A DNA stretch of 64,000 bases from Arcobacter venerupis (GTDB taxonomy: Bacteria > Campylobacterota > Campylobacteria > Campylobacterales > Arcobacteraceae): positions 806,001 through 870,000 of the forward strand of contig NZ_CP053840.1 of the NCBI RefSeq assembly GCF_013201665.1. The letters run 5' to 3'. Both the position numbers and the translations under genes were made by a program. The notes under the pieces were generated by a model. It did no database searches. It was given only the letters and a program-made list of their open reading frames with translations, and was not told where the DNA came from. This document shows, in pieces, positions 29,245-58,300 of this stretch (position 1 is its first letter; the number at the start of each line of letters is the position of its first letter).

Positions 29245-30024
29245 ATGAGCCGTAAAAAATTTATTGAAAGTTGTGGAGCAACATGTTCTAATTGGAATTG
29301 GAGTTGGTCATTTATTAACAAAGAAAAAAAACAGATAATTTTTGGTGTGTGGACAATTAATATTGAAGATATTTATTGGAAAATATTTAGCTCAACATGG
29401 ATAAAGAATGAAAAAGGACAAAAAAGTAAAGGATTCAATCAATCAAAAGAACATATAAGACTCATTGAAGAAGAAAATTATGAACTGTATGTATTTAAAA
29501 TGTTTCATGATTCTAATAACAAAACTGAAATTATAAAGATTAGTAAATTTGAAGCAAATTTGATACAAAAAAGACTTATGAAAAAAGAAGATTCTTGGTA
29601 TGCAGTTGATATTAATGAACTCTCATTAGCAGAAGAAATATTTGATAATGAAAATCGTTTTTTTGAAGGAGCAAAAGAAACTGTAACTGTTAATAAATAT
29701 GAACGCAATTTAGACGCAAGAAATAGATGTATAGAAATACATGGCTATTTTTGTAAGGTATGTGGTTTTGATTTTGAAAAATTTTATGGAACATATGGTG
29801 CTAAATATATTCATGTTCATCATCTTATCCCTTTATATGAAATTCAAAAAGAGTATAAAGTTTGTCCAGAAAAAGATTTAATACCTGTTTGTGCTAATTG
29901 TCATGCTATGATTCATAGAGGGAGAGGAACAATATCTATTGAAGAGCTAAAAGCACATATAAATAAAGAGTATAATATCTTTTTTTCTCCCGTTCCTATC
30001 GTCCTCGATGGGAATACACACTAA
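29245..30024 (+). CDS. HNH endonuclease, 3' end overprinted by a palindromic repeat
   Basis: 259 residues. The C-terminal half is an HNH (beta-beta-alpha metal) nuclease with two zinc-binding pairs: CKVCGFDF, then HVHHLIPLYEI and LIPVCANCHAMIHRG. The N-terminal ~130 residues (GATCSNWNWSWSFIN, IFGVWTIN) form a separate globular domain I do not recognise by name; in such proteins this part often senses DNA modification, which is inference. The last ~11 codons (SPVPIVLDGNTH region) lie inside the first copy of the palindromic repeat at 29991, so the natural stop was probably displaced by the repeat. No methyltransferase gene is adjacent. Confidence 0.75.
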   Translation: MSRKKFIESCGATCSNWNWSWSFINKEKKQIIFGVWTINIEDIYWKIFSSTWIKNEKGQKSKGFNQSKEHIRLIEEENYELYVFKMFHDSNNKTEIIKISKFEANLIQKRLMKKEDSWYAVDINELSLAEEIFDNENRFFEGAKETVTVNKYERNLDARNRCIEIHGYFCKVCGFDFEKFYGTYGAKYIHVHHLIPLYEIQKEYKVCPEKDLIPVCANCHAMIHRGRGTISIEELKAHINKEYNIFFSPVPIVLDGNTH

Positions 30025-30235
30025 AACTATTTTCTCTTAAAAAATATAAGGCTCATTACTTCTTCTTACTTTTCTCGTTCCCATCGTCCTCGATGGGAAT
30101 GCATACTAAAAATATTTCCTCTTAAAAAATGTAAAGCTCTTTACTTCTTCTTACTTTCCCTCGTTCCCATTGTCCTCGATGGGAATGCATACAAAAACTA
30201 TTTTTTTTTAAAAATATAAAGGTCTGCGTATCTCT
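29991..30235 (+). repeat. Three tandem ~86-bp repeats with TTCCCATCG palindromes
   Basis: Each unit begins CGTTCC(C/T)AT(C/T)GTCCTCGATGGG in effect: a palindrome TTCCCATCG-TCCT-CGATGGGAA at 29993-30014, 30078-30099 and 30164-30185, spaced 85 and 86 bases apart, followed by a shared A/T-rich sequence (TTAAAAAATATAAGGCTC, then TTACTTCTTCTTACTTT). Copies differ by a few bases. The core resembles GTTCCCAxxG-TCC-CxxTGGGAATGC palindromes scattered in other proteobacterial genomes. It is G+C-richer than its surroundings. Confidence 0.85.
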
Positions 30236-34721: not shown

Positions 34722-35483
34722 ATGAAATTCAAAAAAGTCCAAATCATTTTTTTAATCTGTTTATTAACTCTATTTCAATCTTGTACTATGCCAACTCAAA
34801 AAATAGAAAGTATCGCTCAGACAAATTCTGCAACACAAATAGAAGAGTATAAAAAAGAGATTTTAAAATCATTAATTGAATATAAAAAAAGATTAGATTT
34901 AAGAAATCCATATGCTTATAATAAACAAATAGAAAGTAGTTTAGAACACCAAATCATAAAAAATCAAGATTATATAAACTTATTAAAAGATGGGAAAAGA
35001 TTAAATACTTATAATCAATATTTTTATTATGCTTTTTCAAAAGAAAATATAAAAAATAGAAATGATTTTTTAATAATAGGACTTTATAAACTTATCTTCA
35101 AAGCTTATAGTATGGATAGTGAACATCAATTTACAGCAATGGAATATAATAAGTATGAATTACAAAATTTATACGAATATCTTCAAGTTGTAAGATGGAA
35201 AATTAGAGTTGATAAAAATGATAAAGGTGAATATCTTTTTAATACTTGGCAAAATAATTGGCAACTTGAATTAGCAAAAAAATATAATGGTGATTATAAT
35301 ATTATCAATAATTTACAATACATAAAATCAAATAAAGAGAATGTTTATGACCATTCAAATTTCTCATTTGAGATTATTATTTCAAAAATTATTACGGATG
35401 TGGAGCATACACTTAGAAAAATAAATGTTGAACCTTATGAAATGAGTCTCTCTGCGCTTACAGGTTTTGTTTTTATTCTTTAA
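34722..35483 (+). CDS. Lipoprotein of unknown function
   Basis: 253 residues with a lipoprotein signal (FLICLLTLFQSC, lipobox LFQSC, Cys21). The mature part is Lys/Asn/Tyr-rich and mainly helical (EEYKKEILKSLIEYKKRLDLRN in part) and ends EPYEMSLSALTGFVFIL. No family recognised. Its last 66 bases recur as a direct repeat at 41016-41080, bracketing the accessory block downstream. Confidence 0.75.
   Translation: MKFKKVQIIFLICLLTLFQSCTMPTQKIESIAQTNSATQIEEYKKEILKSLIEYKKRLDLRNPYAYNKQIESSLEHQIIKNQDYINLLKDGKRLNTYNQYFYYAFSKENIKNRNDFLIIGLYKLIFKAYSMDSEHQFTAMEYNKYELQNLYEYLQVVRWKIRVDKNDKGEYLFNTWQNNWQLELAKKYNGDYNIINNLQYIKSNKENVYDHSNFSFEIIISKIITDVEHTLRKINVEPYEMSLSALTGFVFIL
35417..35482 (+). repeat. Left copy of the 66-bp direct repeat
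   Basis: The last 66 bases of the lipoprotein coding sequence, including its stop. The right copy (41016-41080) differs by one substitution (GTTGAACC/GTAGAACC) and one missing CT-register base (TCTCTCTGC/TCTTCTGC). Confidence 0.9.
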
Positions 35484-35530
35484 TTCAATGCATGGAATTT
35501 ATTTAATCTTCAAATAAGATAGTACTTTAA

Positions 35531-35896
35531 GATAAAAAAGTTTATCCTACAACATATAATCATCAAGTAAAGATAGCTTCTTTTCCTAAAGAACAAGCTA
35601 ATTTTTAGTACCAAATTTATAGATTAAAACCGTTTAATGATGGAATTATTTACATAAGCTGCACTAAAAGAAGGTATTAAAGCTAATATAAAATCTTCAA
35701 TGCCAACTGCTAATATTTTAAAATAAATTAATGGAAATAAAATTACATACGTGAAGAATTTAGGTATAACTGATATCTTAAGTAGTATGGAAATTATAAA
35801 TTATGATAAATATTTTGCAGAAGATATAGTTAATGCTCGAATTCATATTTATGCTTTTCGTTTACATGTTGATGAAGAAAAATATATAATATGTTA
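35531..35896 (+). pseudogene. Decayed gene remnant
   Basis: Conceptual reading gives protein-like stretches split by stops and a frameshift: VYPTTYNHQVKIASFPKEQ up to an in-frame TAG near 35606, then YQIYRLKPFNDGIIYI, a frame change near 35665 into AALKEGIKANIKSSMPTANIL, and after a stop near 35723 TYVKNLGITDILSSMEIIN, FAEDIVNARIHIYAFRL to a TAA near 35896. No start or intact frame exists. Parent protein unknown. The remaining 160 bases to 36060 show nothing I can name. Confidence 0.4.
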
Positions 35897-36059
35897 AGAA
35901 AGAAAAGTAGTTTTTTGAAAAAAGATAATTAGATATATAAAATTTAAAATTGGATTTTTAATATACTGCACAGAACAAGTTCGATAAAATCACTAATATC
36001 TATAAAATACTGCAGTTAGATATTGTAAATTTAGAGGAATACTTCAATACCCAGGATAA

Positions 36060-37874
36060 TTGTTGAATAATAATATACTTTTTATAATAAATGATGACAA
36101 TGAAGATTTAGACAAAAGAATATCTTTATTGAAAGATAAAACTATATATATTACTTCTTATAATTTAGAAATTTTAGAAAAATATAAATACCATTCTAAT
36201 GTAAAAAAAGTCTTCTATCTTGAAGAAATGCACACTGTATTTGAATCATCTGAACAAACAATTGATATTATTACTAAAGCAAATGAATTTCTAAAGTTAG
36301 TGATTAACGAAGAATTGATTTATGTACAAGGACAAATTGAAGGAGGTAATAATCAATCTATTTTAGATATAGTATTGTTTAAATTATCATTTGACAAAAT
36401 TATCACAGATTATAAAATTGATTTAGTTGAAAATTATACTTCAAGTTTTTATTATAAAGAAAATAAATTTATAAAAGATATTTTAATAGAAAATAAAATT
36501 GAATATTTAATTTATATTACTGATAAGTATAATTATTTTAAAGAATGTATTCGAATAGATTTTAAAAGATATTTTAAGGGGATATATGATTTCTTTAGTT
36601 TTTTGCTTTTAAATATCAAGTATAAAAAAAATAAATATAATAAGTATAAAAAAACTCTATTTGTGCATGTCGCTTCAAATATGCATAAATTTTATGATAG
36701 TTTCAAATATTTTACAGATACTATAGAACAAAATAGTGATTATAAATGTAAATTTATTACAAATGGAATAAATATCACAAATGAAAAATTAATACAAGAA
36801 AAACCTTATATTCTTGAACATTATATGACAGTGTTAGATTTTTTCTATTCATTTTTATCCACAATAAAGTATTTACTAATCTATAAAACAAACCAAAATA
36901 AATTCAACTTATTTTTTAATCACTTACCCCTTTCAATAAAGAATCAAATTAATAATGTGATTTACTATGAAATTATTGTTCAATATGGGTTTAACATCAG
37001 ATATAAAAAAGCATTAAATCGATTCTTTTCAAAAAATACTTTTTCAGCATGGAAGTTATGGGGTGGTGTTTCCCTCCCTGCAGGAAAAATTGCTGTAGAT
37101 ATTATAAATAGTAAATATAGTTACATAACAAGTTTTATATTTGATATTAATTCAGAATTTAAATATTACCCTTTCCTTACAGATAATTTAAATTTAATGG
37201 ATTATAAAATATTATTTGAACAAAAAGATAAAGAAGCATGTTTATATCAAGGATATGAGCCTAACAAATTATTACTAATTCCAGAATTGAATATAAAAAA
37301 AAATATGTTAAAACTAAAGAATCAATATACTCAAAATGATTCAATGAAATTACTAAATATAAAAAATGATTATTTAGAATATATATTTATTGATATTAAT
37401 GTTCGAATTAGAGGTATTATTCATATTCAAGAAATCGAAATTTTTATTTATAATATAAAACTTCTTGCAATAGAATTTATTAATTATGCCTTTATAATTA
37501 AGCCTCATCCTAGGTTCCAGCAATTTGAGTATTTAAAAAATCATCTTTCTGGAATTAGTAATATTTATTTATTTACTCCTGAGTTACCTATTTTCCATTT
37601 TTTAAATATATCTACTGTTGTTATAACAAAATTATCTGCTATTGGGTTTGAAGCTTTAACCTTAGGTAAAGTACTTATTTGTGTGATTTTAGATGATGAA
37701 TCAAATTGGGAAGGATATGGAGATAACGCAAACTATTTCTTTTCTTTTGTTGATGTTATGCATTTTTTACATAACATTCAAAAGACAAGTGAAATAATTA
37801 ATATTAAAAGTGAGAAATTAAAATATAAAGAGTCAAGTATTAACGATTTTCTTGAAAAGATAGAGAATAAATAA
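36060..37874 (+). CDS. Putative surface-polysaccharide transferase (GT-B-like)
   Basis: 604 residues from a TTG (a second TTG follows immediately; the GGATAAT upstream fits either). No clear signal or TM. The C-terminal part resembles the nucleotide-sugar/CDP-polyol-binding half of capsule and teichoic-acid type transferases: FIIKPHPRFQQFEYL, then VITKLSAIGFEALTLGKVLICV, i.e. the HP and S-x-x-x-E-A patterns of this group. The N-terminal half is unassigned. It is followed two bases later by a flippase. A role in building a lipid-linked or surface glycan is the likely reading. Confidence 0.5.
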   Translation: MLNNNILFIINDDNEDLDKRISLLKDKTIYITSYNLEILEKYKYHSNVKKVFYLEEMHTVFESSEQTIDIITKANEFLKLVINEELIYVQGQIEGGNNQSILDIVLFKLSFDKIITDYKIDLVENYTSSFYYKENKFIKDILIENKIEYLIYITDKYNYFKECIRIDFKRYFKGIYDFFSFLLLNIKYKKNKYNKYKKTLFVHVASNMHKFYDSFKYFTDTIEQNSDYKCKFITNGINITNEKLIQEKPYILEHYMTVLDFFYSFLSTIKYLLIYKTNQNKFNLFFNHLPLSIKNQINNVIYYEIIVQYGFNIRYKKALNRFFSKNTFSAWKLWGGVSLPAGKIAVDIINSKYSYITSFIFDINSEFKYYPFLTDNLNLMDYKILFEQKDKEACLYQGYEPNKLLLIPELNIKKNMLKLKNQYTQNDSMKLLNIKNDYLEYIFIDINVRIRGIIHIQEIEIFIYNIKLLAIEFINYAFIIKPHPRFQQFEYLKNHLSGISNIYLFTPELPIFHFLNISTVVITKLSAIGFEALTLGKVLICVILDDESNWEGYGDNANYFFSFVDVMHFLHNIQKTSEIINIKSEKLKYKESSINDFLEKIENK

Positions 37875-37876
37875 AA

Positions 37877-39307
37877 GTGAATAATAAACTCTCAAAAGAT
37901 AATGCTATAGTATTTTCAACCCAAATATTAGTATATATGAAAGGCTTATTTTTAATGCCTATCATTATAAAAACACTTGGTGTTTCAACTTATGGTACTT
38001 TCATTTTAATATCAACTTTTGTAGGTATTTTGGGTGGATTATCAAGTTTAGGAGTAGGAACTAAATCTTTTAGATATTTGCCTTCAGCTAAAAGTGAATA
38101 TGATAAAGCGCAAATATTTTATCCTCCATTTTATTTTAAATTATTTATATTAATATTTATTTCAATTATTATAGTAATTTTTGAAAAAAGAATTAAATTG
38201 TTCTTTATTCATGATGATTTAACATTTTCAATTTATATTTTGCCTTTATATCTATTATTTTACTTGATTTATGAGTATTCACATAATTATTTAAGATATA
38301 CATCTAGAATATTTTATATGAGCTTATTGGATTTTGGATATGCATATTTACACGTATTTTTTATATTATTTTATTCAAATAAGATTGGGCTAATAAATAT
38401 TAATATTTTATTTTTATCACAATCATTTGTAGCTTTATTTGTAGCTATTCCCGTTTTATTTTTAATTTTTAAAGAAATTAATTTTAATTTTATTTTTTTT
38501 AAGTTGAACGAAATAAAAGAAGAAATTAAAATTGGTTTGCCTATCGTATTAAATTTAGTAGTTGATTATATTTTGGCTACTTCTGATAGATTTATTTTAG
38601 CATATTTTATGGGTGCGATAGCAGTAGGTTTATATGTCCCTGCATATACTTTAGGTGCACTTATTCTTCTTGTTCCAAAAGCTATAGGAACGGTTGTACC
38701 ACAATTAATGTCAAAAAGTGTAGATAATGATGATTTTTTAGAAGCAAAAAAAATATTTTTACACTCAATTAAAATATTTATGATTCTAACTATTCCTTTT
38801 ATCTTTGGCATTTATCTTATAGGATATGATATTTTAATTTTATTGGCAAATGATGAAGTTGCTGATAATGGAAAATATATAGCTACTATCATAGCTATTA
38901 GCAGCTTTTTTTATGGTTTTAATATTTTAATGTCACAAGCAAATATGGTAGATCTCAAAACAGTAGTGATATTTAAGGCTAATTTTTTAGCTGGAATTTT
39001 TAATTTAATTTCAACGTTTATAGGTTTTTATTTTATACATAGTATATATGTTCCAGCAATTACTACCGTGTTGTCTTTTATGATTGCAACTATATATTTT
39101 TATAAAACTATAGAGAGTAAATGGTTAGATAATAGTATATTTTTTTTATTCATAAAAGTTTTAATGATATCTATTCTTATGTTTATATTTGTTAATATTT
39201 CTATGGTATTTCTACCTGAATTATCAATGGTAATGAGTATTATAATAAAGATATTACTTGCTTTAATAATATATTTTCCATTAGTAATACTATTAAAAAT
39301 ATTATAG
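37877..39307 (+). CDS. Polysaccharide flippase (Wzx/MATE-like)
   Basis: 476 residues starting at GTG, with 12-14 TM helices. N-terminal FSTQILVYMKGLFLMPIIIK, IKTLGVSTYGTFILIST and the mid-protein ILATSDRFILAYFMGAIAVGLYVPAY are typical of polysaccharide biosynthesis (Wzx-type) flippases. It would translocate a lipid-linked glycan across the inner membrane. Only two bases separate it from the transferase gene. Confidence 0.85.
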   Translation: MNNKLSKDNAIVFSTQILVYMKGLFLMPIIIKTLGVSTYGTFILISTFVGILGGLSSLGVGTKSFRYLPSAKSEYDKAQIFYPPFYFKLFILIFISIIIVIFEKRIKLFFIHDDLTFSIYILPLYLLFYLIYEYSHNYLRYTSRIFYMSLLDFGYAYLHVFFILFYSNKIGLININILFLSQSFVALFVAIPVLFLIFKEINFNFIFFKLNEIKEEIKIGLPIVLNLVVDYILATSDRFILAYFMGAIAVGLYVPAYTLGALILLVPKAIGTVVPQLMSKSVDNDDFLEAKKIFLHSIKIFMILTIPFIFGIYLIGYDILILLANDEVADNGKYIATIIAISSFFYGFNILMSQANMVDLKTVVIFKANFLAGIFNLISTFIGFYFIHSIYVPAITTVLSFMIATIYFYKTIESKWLDNSIFFLFIKVLMISILMFIFVNISMVFLPELSMVMSIIIKILLALIIYFPLVILLKIL

Positions 39308-39395
39308 AAAATACAAGCTTGATAGATTTATATTATTAAAATGTTAAAAAATATTTGATAAAGTTTTGTTTAAGCTAATAAATAAAGAGGAATAA

Positions 39396-40283
39396 ATGAA
39401 AATAATGTATTTACACATTGGAGCAGGTAAGACGGGTACATCTTCACTTCAATCTCAATTTGCAATAAATAAAGATGTATTAGAAAAATATAATATATAT
39501 TATCCAATATCAAAAAATGATAAACAAGCAAAGAATTTTAAAATAACTTCTGGGAATGCAGTTGATTTAGCTTTCTTACTTAGAGAAAAAACATCAGATA
39601 ATAAAATAATAGAAGGAATTATAAAAAGTCATATTTTAATGGCAGAGGGGAAAGATATTTTATTATCAAGTGAAATTATGCAATCCTTTGATTATGATAA
39701 AATTCAGATATGTAAAAATATAGCTTTTGTTCTTGGATATCAAATTAAAATTATCTATTATGTACGTGCAATTGTAGATAATCTTGTATCTTCTTATCAT
39801 CAGACAATTAAAAGACATGGTAATACTAAAAATTTAGATATATTTTTAAAAAGTTATAGAAATAAATTTAGAGAAACAATTGAAAAAATTGATGAGATTT
39901 TTGGCTCTAGTAATATAATAGTTAAGAATTATGATTTAGTAAAAGATAATATATTTTTAAATTTTCTTCAAAATATATTAAATATTGAAGATTGCAATAG
40001 TTTTAAAATAGAAAATAAAAGAGTCAATCGTTCATTAACTAAACGAGAGCTCTCTTTTATAAAGTATTTAAATTATTTTTTTAGAAGTAGAGTAATTTCA
40101 ACTTTAGCAAGTAATACTTTAATTCATATTAATCCAACAGCTAAATATGAATTAATAATATCAAAAAATGAATTTGAAATAGTATCAAATTTATATAATC
40201 AGGACTTAGCAGTTATAAATTCATATCTGCAAGAAAGTGAAAGACCTTTAAAGTTAGTTGATAATATTAAGATAAATGAATAA
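39396..40283 (+). CDS. Sulfotransferase-like protein
   Basis: 295 residues. The N terminus LHIGAGKTGTSSLQSQF is the P-loop-like 5'-phosphosulfate-binding motif (KTGTSSLQ) of PAPS sulfotransferases; IIYYVRAIVDNLVSSYHQ matches the 3'-phosphate-binding region (R-x-x-x-D...S). Also a LLSSEIMQSF strand. It probably sulfates a glycan made by the neighbours; the acceptor is unknown. Confidence 0.65.
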   Translation: MKIMYLHIGAGKTGTSSLQSQFAINKDVLEKYNIYYPISKNDKQAKNFKITSGNAVDLAFLLREKTSDNKIIEGIIKSHILMAEGKDILLSSEIMQSFDYDKIQICKNIAFVLGYQIKIIYYVRAIVDNLVSSYHQTIKRHGNTKNLDIFLKSYRNKFRETIEKIDEIFGSSNIIVKNYDLVKDNIFLNFLQNILNIEDCNSFKIENKRVNRSLTKRELSFIKYLNYFFRSRVISTLASNTLIHINPTAKYELIISKNEFEIVSNLYNQDLAVINSYLQESERPLKLVDNIKINE

Positions 40284-40312
40284 AAATACAAATTTAAAAC
40301 AAGAGAGAAAAA

Positions 40313-41023
40313 ATGTCATTAAATGTTAAGTGGGAAAAAGAAGTTTATTCTCAAAATAAACAAGTTAATAAATATCCATTTGGAGAGTTTATTTCAATAT
40401 TTTTTAATTCAATAAAACTTTTGCCCCAAGAGAAAGAGAAAAAAGATATTAAAATTCTTGAACTTGGATGTGGTACTGCTAATAACATTAAGTTTATGTC
40501 TGAGCAAGGATATCATGTTTATGGAATTGATGGAAGTGAAAGTGCTTGTAAAATTGCAAATGAATTTTTATTAAGTCAAAAAGTAAAAGCAACTATAAAG
40601 AAATCATATTTTCAAGATTTACCATTTGAAAATGAAATGTTTGATTTAATAGTAGATAGAGAAGCTATGTGTTGTGGTACATTTTCTAGTATAAAACAAA
40701 GTTGGAATGAAGCAAGTAGGGTTTTGAAAATTGGTGGAATGGTAATATCATTTATGTACACAAGTGATGATAGATGGTGTAAAAAAGCTAATAACGATAC
40801 TGAAATGGCTGTAAAAGTCGAAAAAAACACTTTTACAGATTTTAATGTTGGTGATTTTAAAAATATTGATATTGTTCATTTTACTGAATATGATGAGTTA
40901 TTTGAATTATTTGATTTTTTAGATATTAAATTAATTAATAAACATGGTAATAATACAGTTTTTACTGATGAATCAATAGACTTCTCATATGATGAGTGGA
41001 TTATTGTAGGAGTTAAAAAATAA
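40313..41023 (+). CDS. Class I SAM-dependent methyltransferase
   Basis: 236 residues. Motif I is ILELGCGTANNIKFM, then VYGIDGSESACKIAN (motif II acidic residue), DLPFENEMFDLIVDREAMCCG (post-I/IV region) and EASRVLKIGGMVISF (motif VI). Substrate unknown; a sugar or acceptor in the same block is likely. Its stop codon lies inside the right direct repeat, so its original 3' end may have been changed at the junction. Confidence 0.8.
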   Translation: MSLNVKWEKEVYSQNKQVNKYPFGEFISIFFNSIKLLPQEKEKKDIKILELGCGTANNIKFMSEQGYHVYGIDGSESACKIANEFLLSQKVKATIKKSYFQDLPFENEMFDLIVDREAMCCGTFSSIKQSWNEASRVLKIGGMVISFMYTSDDRWCKKANNDTEMAVKVEKNTFTDFNVGDFKNIDIVHFTEYDELFELFDFLDIKLINKHGNNTVFTDESIDFSYDEWIIVGVKK

Positions 41024-41080
41024 ATGTAGAACCTTATGAAATGAGTCTTCTGCGCTTACAGGTTTTGTTTTTATTCTTTA
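41016..41080 (+). repeat. Right copy of the direct repeat
   Basis: 65 bases matching the lipoprotein gene's 3' end at 35417-35482, with a one-base deletion that shifts the frame, so it is a non-functional fragment. It continues into AGGTTAAAGTTG, unlike the left copy, marking the repeat boundary. Confidence 0.9.
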
Positions 41081-41217
41081 GGTTAAAGTTGAGAATTTAT
41101 TACTTAATAAAAAATCAAGAAAAACTACTTATTCAGATACACTAATAATAAGTATTTGAATATGTAACAAATAACTCTTATATTCACTTCGTAAATTTAA
41201 CTAAAGGAAAATTCAAA

Positions 41218-41364
41218 ATGCTTGAAACAATTGCTATTATTTTACTTGTTTTATGGGTTTTAGGTCTTGTTACTTCAACAACAATTGGTGGATTTATTCA
41301 TATTTTATTAGTTATTGCAATTGTAATGATTTTACTTCGAATCATTCGAGGGCGACGTTTATAA
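41218..41364 (+). CDS. 48-residue lmo0937-type membrane protein
   Basis: A short gene starting MLETIAIILLVLWVLGLV and ending with a basic IIRGRRL. Two hydrophobic segments and a positively charged tail match the small lmo0937-type family found across bacteria, often stress-induced. Preceded by AAAGGAA eight bases before ATG and followed by a terminator. Confidence 0.75.
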   Translation: MLETIAIILLVLWVLGLVTSTTIGGFIHILLVIAIVMILLRIIRGRRL

Positions 41365-41386
41365 ATATTTCTATAATAGAAAACCA

Positions 41387-41423
41387 AATAAAAGAAAGAA
41401 GATATTTTTCTTTTTCTTTTATT
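41387..41423. terminator. Convergent terminator near 41.4 kb
   Basis: AATAAAAGAAAGAA pairs with TTCTTTTTCTTTTATT (two-base bulge), T-rich afterwards; it ends the small membrane-protein gene and lies next to the stop of the RND permease. Confidence 0.6.
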
Positions 41424-41429
41424 ATTTAT

Positions 41430-44400
41430 TTACTCTTTAGGCATTTTTCTAAGTTTATGTGTTAAGGTATATAAAATTGGTAGATAAATAAGATTTAATA
41501 CAGTTCCCCATGCAAGTCCAAATCCTAAAGCAATTGCTATTGGTTGGAAAATTACAGACTCTCCACTTGGAAATAAAATCAAAGTTAACATCCCAATAAC
41601 TGTAGTTACCGTGGTAATTACAATTGGTCTAAATCTTTTTGTGGCTCTTTGAAAAATTTCATCCAAAGTTTTTGCTTTTTTTAGATAAGTCATCATAATA
41701 ATTCCATCATTAATTACAACTCCTGAAAGTCCTAATGCCCCAATTAGTGAGGGCATTGATAGATTTAATCCCATAACTTGATGTCCTATTAATACTCCTA
41801 AAATCGAAAAAGGAATAACACTCATTACTATAAAAGTTTCTCTAAATGAGTTAAATAAATAAAGCATAGAAAGCATTATTAATACAAGAGCAAAAGCAGT
41901 TGCAAGTAACATATCATGTCCTAATTCTGCATTTTTTTCAGCTTCTCCTTTTAATACAATTTTAACTCCATCTTTTTCTATTTTCTCTAAAGTAGGTTTT
42001 AGTTTATTTAGAACCTCACTTGCTGTTATAACATCTGGATTTACATTTGCAAAAACATAGAAATTTTTGATTCCATTATCTTTTAGAAGTTGCTCAAAAG
42101 CTTTTATACTATTTAACTCTACAACTTCATATAAAGCAACATAAGTTCCATCTGATAGTGGAATTTTTGTATTTTTAAAACTTTCAAAATCATCTTTATT
42201 TTGAGATTTTATTTTTATGTCTAACATCTCTTTTTCATCAAAAGATACAGCCTTTTTCTTTAGAAGATATAAATTTGAAAGATAATTTCCAATAAATGAT
42301 TCAGTAAGTCCTAACTCTTCCCCATAAGAGTTAACTTTTACTTTTATTTCATCAATACCAAATTTTAAAGAGTTTGAAGAAGATTTAATTCCAATTATTT
42401 TTTTTAGTTCACTATCTAGTTCTTGAACAGCAGTTATTGCTTTTTGATTATTTGAAGTTACAATTCCTATTTGAATATCTGATTTAATAGGTCCAACTTT
42501 TTTTTCTAATACTTCAATTTCATCAAGATTAAATTTTTTCTTATAATCATTTAGTACTAAAAATTCTTTTAATTGAGTAGATACTTCATCTGATTTTATC
42601 TCTCTTGTTCTTCCTTCCTCATCATAATGAAAACTTAAAAATGGAGTTACATATTTATCTAAGAAATTTGAAGCTTTTGCTTTTTGTAATTCAACTGTCA
42701 TATACATAGCATAAGGGAAATTTTCTGTATTATTTCCAACATCTTTTCTATATCCTGCAACTGAACTTATATTTCTAATATAAAATTGGTCACTTTTTTT
42801 TATCAAATCAGATTCTATTGAACTTACTATTTCAAAGGCTTGTTCAAGGGTTGTATTTGCATTTGCTTTTATTGTGATTTTTACATCTGTTGAGTCAAAT
42901 TTTGGAAACATTTGAAATCTTGAATTGCTTATAAACTCAAAAGTTAAAATAGGAACCATAATTAAAAAAATCACAATAAAACTTTTTTTCCAATTCATAA
43001 AAAAATGAATGATTTTATTGTAAATCTCATTTGCTTTTTCCCATGAAGTCACTTTATCATCAGTTTTTAAAGTATGTGCTGCGTGAATTGGAAGGAAAAT
43101 AAATGATTCAATTAAAGAGGCCACAACCAAAGCACTTAAGGCAATTGGAATTAATCTCATAACTTCACCCATTGTTCCACTAATCATTAAAATTGGCAAA
43201 AATGAGAACAATGTTGTAAGAGAAGCTATGGTAACTGGTTCAACCATCTCTTTTGCACCCATAATAGCAGCTTCTTTAGGAGGATAGCCATCTTCTATAT
43301 GTTGTTGTATATTTTCACTTACAACTATTGCATCATCTACAACTATTCCTATGGCTATTAAAACACCTACGAGAGAAATCATATTTATTGTATATCCAGA
43401 AAGATAGAAATAAATAGCTGCAAGTACAAAAGATGTTGGAATTCCAACAATTATTATAAAAGACATTCTTAGATTAATTAAAAGAGCAACAATTATTGTA
43501 ATTAAAATAATTCCAAGCATAATATTTGAACTTACAACATTTAACCTATCAACAATTCTTTCGCTGTTATCATCAGCAATTGAAATATCAATATCTGGAT
43601 TTTTAGTTTTTATATCTGGTAAGAGTTTTTTAATTTCATTTACAATTTTTATAGCATCTGCTGTATCTGATTGAACAACTTGAAGAGATAAGGAATTTTT
43701 TCCATTAAAAGAGTATAAAGTTGAAGAATCTTCATATTTTTTACCAATAGTTGCAATATCTTTTATATAAAGAGTTTTCCCTGAAATTTTAACTAAAGTA
43801 TTTTCAAACTCTTGGGCTGTTTTTGCTCCATTATTTGTTGATACGTAATAGTGTTTTTTTGGATCTTCAATTTTTCCAATAGGGAAAATATATGATAAAT
43901 TTGAAATAACAGTAAACACATCACTTTTATTTAAATTTAAAGCATCAATTTTTCTTTCATCTAATAATACTTCAAAATATTTATCAGAATCGCCATAAAT
44001 TGAAATTTCATTTATTCCATTTATTGTAAGAAGTTTACTTTTTAAATCATCAGCAAAAGGTTTTAAATCATCAGTTGAGACTTTTTTAGAAGTAACTGAA
44101 ATATCAACTAAAGATCTAGTTCTATCAAGGGTATTAACAGAAGGTTCATCCATATCAGAGGGAAGATTTGTTTTAACTAAAGTTATTACATCTTTAATTT
44201 TATCCGCTTCTACATATTTATCGTGACCTTTTTTTAGTTCAAGTACAATAGTAAATTTTCCAGGACTTATAATCGTAGACATAGTATCAATAGAGTCAAT
44301 ATTTTTAATATTATCTTCAATTTCAACTACAACCATTTTATCTAGAATATCAACACTAGCACCACTATATGATCCTTTAATTGAAATCATATCAAGTTCA

Positions 44401-44525
44401 AAATTAGGAAATATCTCTTTGGGAGTTTTGGTATAAGACCAAATACCAATAGCAAATACAAGAATGAACAAAGTATAGTTCATCCGAGAATTTTCAACAA
44501 AAAATCTTAGAATCTTTTCAAACAT
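41430..44525 (-). CDS. RND efflux permease (AcrB/HAE1-like)
   Basis: 1031 residues, the usual RND size, with TM1, a large periplasmic loop (SVDILDKMVVVEIED, RSLVDISV), TM2-6 containing the proton-relay Asp pair in GIVVDDAIVVSENIQQH, and the second half with GLSGVVINDGIIMM. It has no adaptor or outer-membrane gene beside it; the complete adaptor-permease set at 62 kb is a different system. It follows lapD at 81 bases on the same strand. Substrate unknown. Confidence 0.88.
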   Translation of the reverse strand: MFEKILRFFVENSRMNYTLFILVFAIGIWSYTKTPKEIFPNFELDMISIKGSYSGASVDILDKMVVVEIEDNIKNIDSIDTMSTIISPGKFTIVLELKKGHDKYVEADKIKDVITLVKTNLPSDMDEPSVNTLDRTRSLVDISVTSKKVSTDDLKPFADDLKSKLLTINGINEISIYGDSDKYFEVLLDERKIDALNLNKSDVFTVISNLSYIFPIGKIEDPKKHYYVSTNNGAKTAQEFENTLVKISGKTLYIKDIATIGKKYEDSSTLYSFNGKNSLSLQVVQSDTADAIKIVNEIKKLLPDIKTKNPDIDISIADDNSERIVDRLNVVSSNIMLGIILITIIVALLINLRMSFIIIVGIPTSFVLAAIYFYLSGYTINMISLVGVLIAIGIVVDDAIVVSENIQQHIEDGYPPKEAAIMGAKEMVEPVTIASLTTLFSFLPILMISGTMGEVMRLIPIALSALVVASLIESFIFLPIHAAHTLKTDDKVTSWEKANEIYNKIIHFFMNWKKSFIVIFLIMVPILTFEFISNSRFQMFPKFDSTDVKITIKANANTTLEQAFEIVSSIESDLIKKSDQFYIRNISSVAGYRKDVGNNTENFPYAMYMTVELQKAKASNFLDKYVTPFLSFHYDEEGRTREIKSDEVSTQLKEFLVLNDYKKKFNLDEIEVLEKKVGPIKSDIQIGIVTSNNQKAITAVQELDSELKKIIGIKSSSNSLKFGIDEIKVKVNSYGEELGLTESFIGNYLSNLYLLKKKAVSFDEKEMLDIKIKSQNKDDFESFKNTKIPLSDGTYVALYEVVELNSIKAFEQLLKDNGIKNFYVFANVNPDVITASEVLNKLKPTLEKIEKDGVKIVLKGEAEKNAELGHDMLLATAFALVLIMLSMLYLFNSFRETFIVMSVIPFSILGVLIGHQVMGLNLSMPSLIGALGLSGVVINDGIIMMTYLKKAKTLDEIFQRATKRFRPIVITTVTTVIGMLTLILFPSGESVIFQPIAIALGFGLAWGTVLNLIYLPILYTLTHKLRKMPKE

Positions 44526-58213: not shown

Positions 58214-58300
58214 AAATTGAATATTATAATATTCAAAAATACAAATTGAACACTATAATATTCAAAAATATAAATTGAACACTATAATATTCAAAATTAG
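58214..58300. repeat. Three tandem 29-bp iterons upstream of the SatD gene
   Basis: Units start at 58214, 58243 and 58272, exactly 29 bases apart, with the form AAATTGAA(T/C)A(C/T)TATAATATTCAAAA. Unit 1 contains a perfect 20-bp palindrome TTGAATATTATAATATTCAA (58217-58236); units 2 and 3 keep it with two mismatches. They lie 12-98 bases before the TATAAT promoter (58312-58317). They are contiguous without spacers, so not CRISPR; they are likely operator sites. Confidence 0.85.

Follow-up and report, generated by a model that had tools for sequence, protein, structure and literature searches.

The most probable reading of this locus, at somewhat better than an even chance, is that a glycan block of about 5.5 kb was inserted at the 3' end of a lipoprotein gene with a long target duplication of 65 bp. 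The locus lies within the window, which is the whole 64-kb stretch of DNA analysed, and its features are listed in Table 1. The original prediction saw the block as a swappable or recurrent cassette. This is not supported, since the block has no integrase or transposase, no other genome has cargo at the site, and the repeat has no third copy; a single insertion with duplication is preferred for the same reasons. The block is a clear and fairly ordinary gene acquisition without a mobility gene of its own, and the event is of a known kind.

Table 1. Features of the block and its borders, in window positions.
Feature	Positions	Strand	Remarks
Putative lipoprotein gene (target)	34722..35483	+	253-aa ORF, lipobox-like LFQSC
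Left repeat copy	35417..35482	+	in-frame 3' end of lipoprotein gene
Decayed coding-like stretch (0.58 kb)	35483..36059	+	stops in every frame
604-aa protein, candidate glycan transferase	36060..37874	+	candidate role from context
Polysaccharide flippase (Wzx-like)	37877..39307	+	PF01943 (Polysacc_synt) 1.9e-11, PF13440 9.5e-08
Sulfotransferase-like protein	39396..40283	+	N-terminal GKTGTSS P-loop; PF00685 E 0.0048
SAM methyltransferase	40313..41023	+	2.1e-16; full length
Right repeat copy	41016..41080	+	frameshifted relic of lipoprotein 3' end
Right flank with DUF5670 small membrane protein gene (about 41219-41365)	41081..41430	+	PF18919 7.4e-15
RND transporter gene	41430..44525	-	close to lipoprotein gene in 19 other genomes

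The two copies of the repeat measure 66 nt on the left and 65 nt on the right. They differ by one substitution (T35429 on the left, A41028 on the right), and the right copy is missing one base that corresponds to a position near 35450 of the left copy, which puts it out of frame. Including the next base, 64 of the 67 aligned positions are identical, and the coordinates, the single substitution and the single deletion given in the original prediction are correct. The lipoprotein gene stays intact through the left copy, which keeps it whole and in frame; the right copy is a decayed relic. The longest exact run common to both copies is 32 nt. The only other exact 24-mer repeats in the window belong to a local tandem array at 58.2 kb, leaving this pair as the only long dispersed exact repeat. 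Therefore, the 32-nt run and the lack of any other dispersed 24-mer repeat in 64 kb exclude a chance origin. The genome, a single contig of 3.2 Mb that is Aliarcobacter-like by its nearest named relatives, has no further copy. Inverted repeats around the block borders were also considered; in this AT-rich DNA their matches of 70-76% appear to be due to chance.

The lipoprotein gene is found in 58 of the 104 genomes of the family Arcobacteraceae. It is widespread in the family yet has no Pfam family, and in the closer relatives it is usually convergent with the RND gene. The gap between the lipoprotein and RND transporter genes is 9-55 bp in 19 other Arcobacteraceae genomes, which are those whose examined loci extend to the RND transporter gene, compared with 5.9 kb in the window. 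In two more genomes (G011 and G014) the lipoprotein gene directly adjoins the next flank gene. The block is absent from all 19 and from these two, and no cargo of any kind is present at the lipoprotein 3' end among the relatives examined. The named relatives (Aliarcobacter, Poseidonibacter and Arcobacter records) agree in having an uninterrupted lipoprotein/RND site. The comparison is between species, with one genome per species. These sites, uninterrupted and without the block, bear out an insertion bracketed by a duplicated lipoprotein 3' end. The empty site had been expected to join the lipoprotein end to 41081; uninterrupted sites do occur in relatives, but that exact junction is not seen in any genome examined, and in the relatives the sequence that follows the lipoprotein end corresponds to 41431 or later positions.

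The sequence to the right of the block bears on the extent of the insertion. G022 has a segment 75% identical to 41092-41382 at the matching locus, after a MATE gene, but without the lipoprotein gene. Since this segment is present at the locus in G022, the right flank is probably native, as judged from this alignment, and the inserted part would run from 35483 to about 41020. The RND gene is absent at the locus in G011, G014 and G022; therefore, within the genus, breakpoints have recurred in the stretch to the right of the lipoprotein gene.

The two copies also bear on the lineage in which the duplication arose. Against relatives that align well, the left and right copies score at most two positions apart, and both match the nearest species at 59 of 67-68 positions, compared with 64 of 67 to each other. 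On this comparison of sequences the copies are sisters, each being the closest match of the other. Because both are equally far from the nearest relatives, the duplication arose in this lineage, and it may well have arisen at the moment of insertion. The block is a species-restricted acquisition, since the sites of relatives do not have it and its 604-aa protein and flippase are without relatives in the class.

The right junction carries a sign of how the block was joined. The right copy had been thought to supply the stop codon of the methyltransferase. The stop is within the repeat, but the gene is of full length, with a natural end that overlaps the repeat. Three relatives of the methyltransferase stop at the same residue as the window gene, on AAAAAATGA, and end in GVKK-stop on GTNAAAAAATGA. 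In the window the methyltransferase gene ends with GTTAAAAAATAA, and GAAAAATAAATG is the lipoprotein sequence at the start of the repeat; the natural end of the methyltransferase and the repeat start overlap by 6-8 bp (AAAAAT(AA)). Since the relatives end at the same residue, the methyltransferase stop lies inside this overlap, and the overlap points to joining by microhomology. The chance of a shared run at a random junction of window DNA is 0.004 for at least 6 bp and 0.0006 for at least 8 bp, which favours microhomology to the limited extent that one junction, in an A-rich stretch and judged after the fact, can do so.

Template switching could produce this structure. A repair or replication fork would copy up to the lipoprotein stop, then switch template to incoming DNA carrying the block, and finally switch back 65 bp upstream by means of the AAAAAT(AA) common to the methyltransferase end and the lipoprotein gene. 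On the opposite side, the repeat ends no more than one base from the lipoprotein stop codon. Under random breakage this would be a coincidence, and it counts against an insertion with target duplication. Such a position is what integrase sites in gene 3' ends typically show, and an att model explains it more naturally; selection to keep the gene contributes too. The junction scar can discriminate between microhomology joining and site-specific integration.

The block could possibly, though it is unlikely, be a decayed or cis-mobilizable integrative element whose repeats are the attL and attR of a site-specific recombinase targeting the lipoprotein 3' end. Such an element would have brought a replacement 3' end, and its own integrase would have been lost or never present. 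The repeat is at a gene 3' end and the gene is restored, as in an IME or CIME: the left copy completes the lipoprotein gene up to its stop codon, with the right copy as the displaced relic. A length of 65 bp is plausible for att and the repeat fits it. Islands between gene-end repeats are known, some without an integration module (Dehalococcoides ssrA, PMC3146451). However, a foreign element should bring a diverged 3' end and the two copies are sisters; there is also neither an integrase inside the block nor a related element at the site, and no relative has cargo there. Scans of the block proteins with Pfam, NCBIfam and PHROG found no integrase or transposase, as the original prediction had stated, with serine recombinases sought through the Pfam and PHROG scans. 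A PF00589 search of the genome, reading through stops, found no tyrosine integrase or remnant in the block. The six tyrosine integrases that it did find are all outside the block, at loci that have no 13-mer in common with the repeat. A composite transposon or an IS-borne block was rejected, as there is no transposase match among the block proteins. It is improbable that the lipoprotein 3' end is a recombination site used in trans by a host recombinase or some other recombinase, with surface-glycan blocks that lack mobility genes being exchanged between strains of the species.

Campbell-type homologous integration of a circle or of transformed conspecific DNA, in which the block was already linked to the 65-bp lipoprotein end, would produce an identical structure. 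The copies are conspecific in sequence, and a 44-bp repeat was judged sufficient for homologous excision of cagPAI (PMC3120642). Such an integration is nevertheless distinctly unlikely, as it merely shifts the question of the first joining to another strain, and plasmid records contain nothing that matches either the block or its 604-aa protein. Being a fragment of the lipoprotein gene, the right copy could in principle be what remains of a tandem duplication whose two copies the block later separated. Only 65 bp are left of such a copy, the homology stops at 41016, and at this upstream edge a complete methyltransferase gene comes to its natural end. Furthermore, of the 58 genomes that have the lipoprotein gene, 57 show one match only, and the other has a weak second match about 16 kb away. 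The remnant of a full tandem copy, which had been named as a possible refutation, is therefore very unlikely.

Insertion with target duplication has a precedent in the same bacterial phylum. Insertions with long target duplication are described for restriction-modification (RM) genes of Helicobacter pylori (Nobusato et al. 2000, as cited in PMC1643837, PMC3031569 and PMC3874152), with an H. pylori example in PMC1643837 and duplications of the order of 100 bp reported for RM genes in PMC3874152. As the citing papers describe them, those insertions have no transposase or integrase, a direct duplication of about 100 bp and an uninterrupted site in relatives; the block likewise has neither enzyme, a direct duplication of 65/66 bp and uninterrupted sites in relatives. 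Their cargo consists of RM genes, whereas here it consists of surface-glycan genes, and the block differs further in that its target is a gene 3' end and that the comparison is between species and not strains. The cag pathogenicity island of H. pylori is also flanked by direct repeats, of 22-44 bp, and lies beside the glutamate racemase gene (PMC3120642). It differs in its size of about 37 kb, in having a type IV secretion system and in being carried by many strains, while the block is 5.5 kb and is in a single genome. The Dehalococcoides ssrA islands have a 20-bp repeat, and 16 islands have a conserved integration module (PMC3146451). These and CIME-like islands resemble the block in that a direct repeat of a gene 3' end marks either border and that not all of them have an integration module; many islands use the ssrA site, whereas the site of the block has no other island and no integrase. 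With the block, the cargo of insertion with long target duplication would widen from RM genes to include surface-glycan genes, and its range from Helicobacter to include Arcobacteraceae. It is a clean case of a chromosome gaining glycan genes in the absence of any mobility gene.

The gene content of the block is as the original prediction described it, with a flippase, a sulfotransferase-like protein, a methyltransferase, an unclassified 604-aa protein and a decayed stretch. The first three and the transferase candidate probably make or decorate a surface glycan. The decayed stretch, searched in pieces, has no useful Pfam or PHROG match and no relative in the 104 family genomes. The 604-aa protein is a probable glycan transferase from its context. 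It has no Pfam or NCBIfam match, and the best hint is a weak match (E 0.12) to a UDP-GlcNAc 2-epimerase chain; single-sequence structure prediction gives a mean pLDDT of 34. At the cut-offs used it has no relative in 397 class genomes, and viral contigs contain no match to it. The flippase has no relative in 377 class genomes at the cut-offs used. As far as the class genomes searched go, these two proteins are orphans, which makes them possible sources of new glycan chemistry.

The only cargo relatives in the family or class at these cut-offs are distant ones of the methyltransferase and of the sulfotransferase-like protein. The PF00685 match of the latter falls below the curated cut-off; a relative of 29% identity lies beside glycan genes in G423, which belongs to another family. 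The three methyltransferase relatives have about 50% identity and each lies between PseG- and PseI-like genes, labels assigned by reading the sequences, in a nonulosonate locus. The block resembles nonulosonate (pseudaminic/legionaminic-type) loci in its methyltransferase but differs from them in having no nonulosonate synthesis genes.

The host genome has two NeuB loci. One is pse-type and the other, elsewhere in the chromosome, is nonulosonate/O-antigen-type and holds an APS kinase and another sulfotransferase. The O-antigen-type locus (L111, G000:C1:1998000-2017000) has APS kinase, sulfotransferase and NeuB genes, a content with which the species might produce a sulfated surface glycan. APS kinase is a sulfate-donor enzyme. 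Since it is present with a sulfotransferase in a host NeuB locus, a sulfate donor is plausibly available.

A GC and codon profile of the block had been proposed as a check. The GC content is low, at 20-24% compared with about 27%, but GC3 and codon scores are close to or within the host range; therefore, the composition is no proof of foreign origin.

Rfam and tRNA scans of the window are empty. At 29984-30221 of the window, between an HNH gene and an AlaX-like gene, an 85-bp unit occurs in 2.8 copies in tandem, each built around an inverted-repeat core (CGTTCCCATCGTCCTCGATGGGAATGCATAC). This unit has no Rfam match, and in G004 and G022 the corresponding position holds single or partial copies. 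The window also has 2.9 tandem copies of a 29-bp AT-rich unit at 58214-58296.
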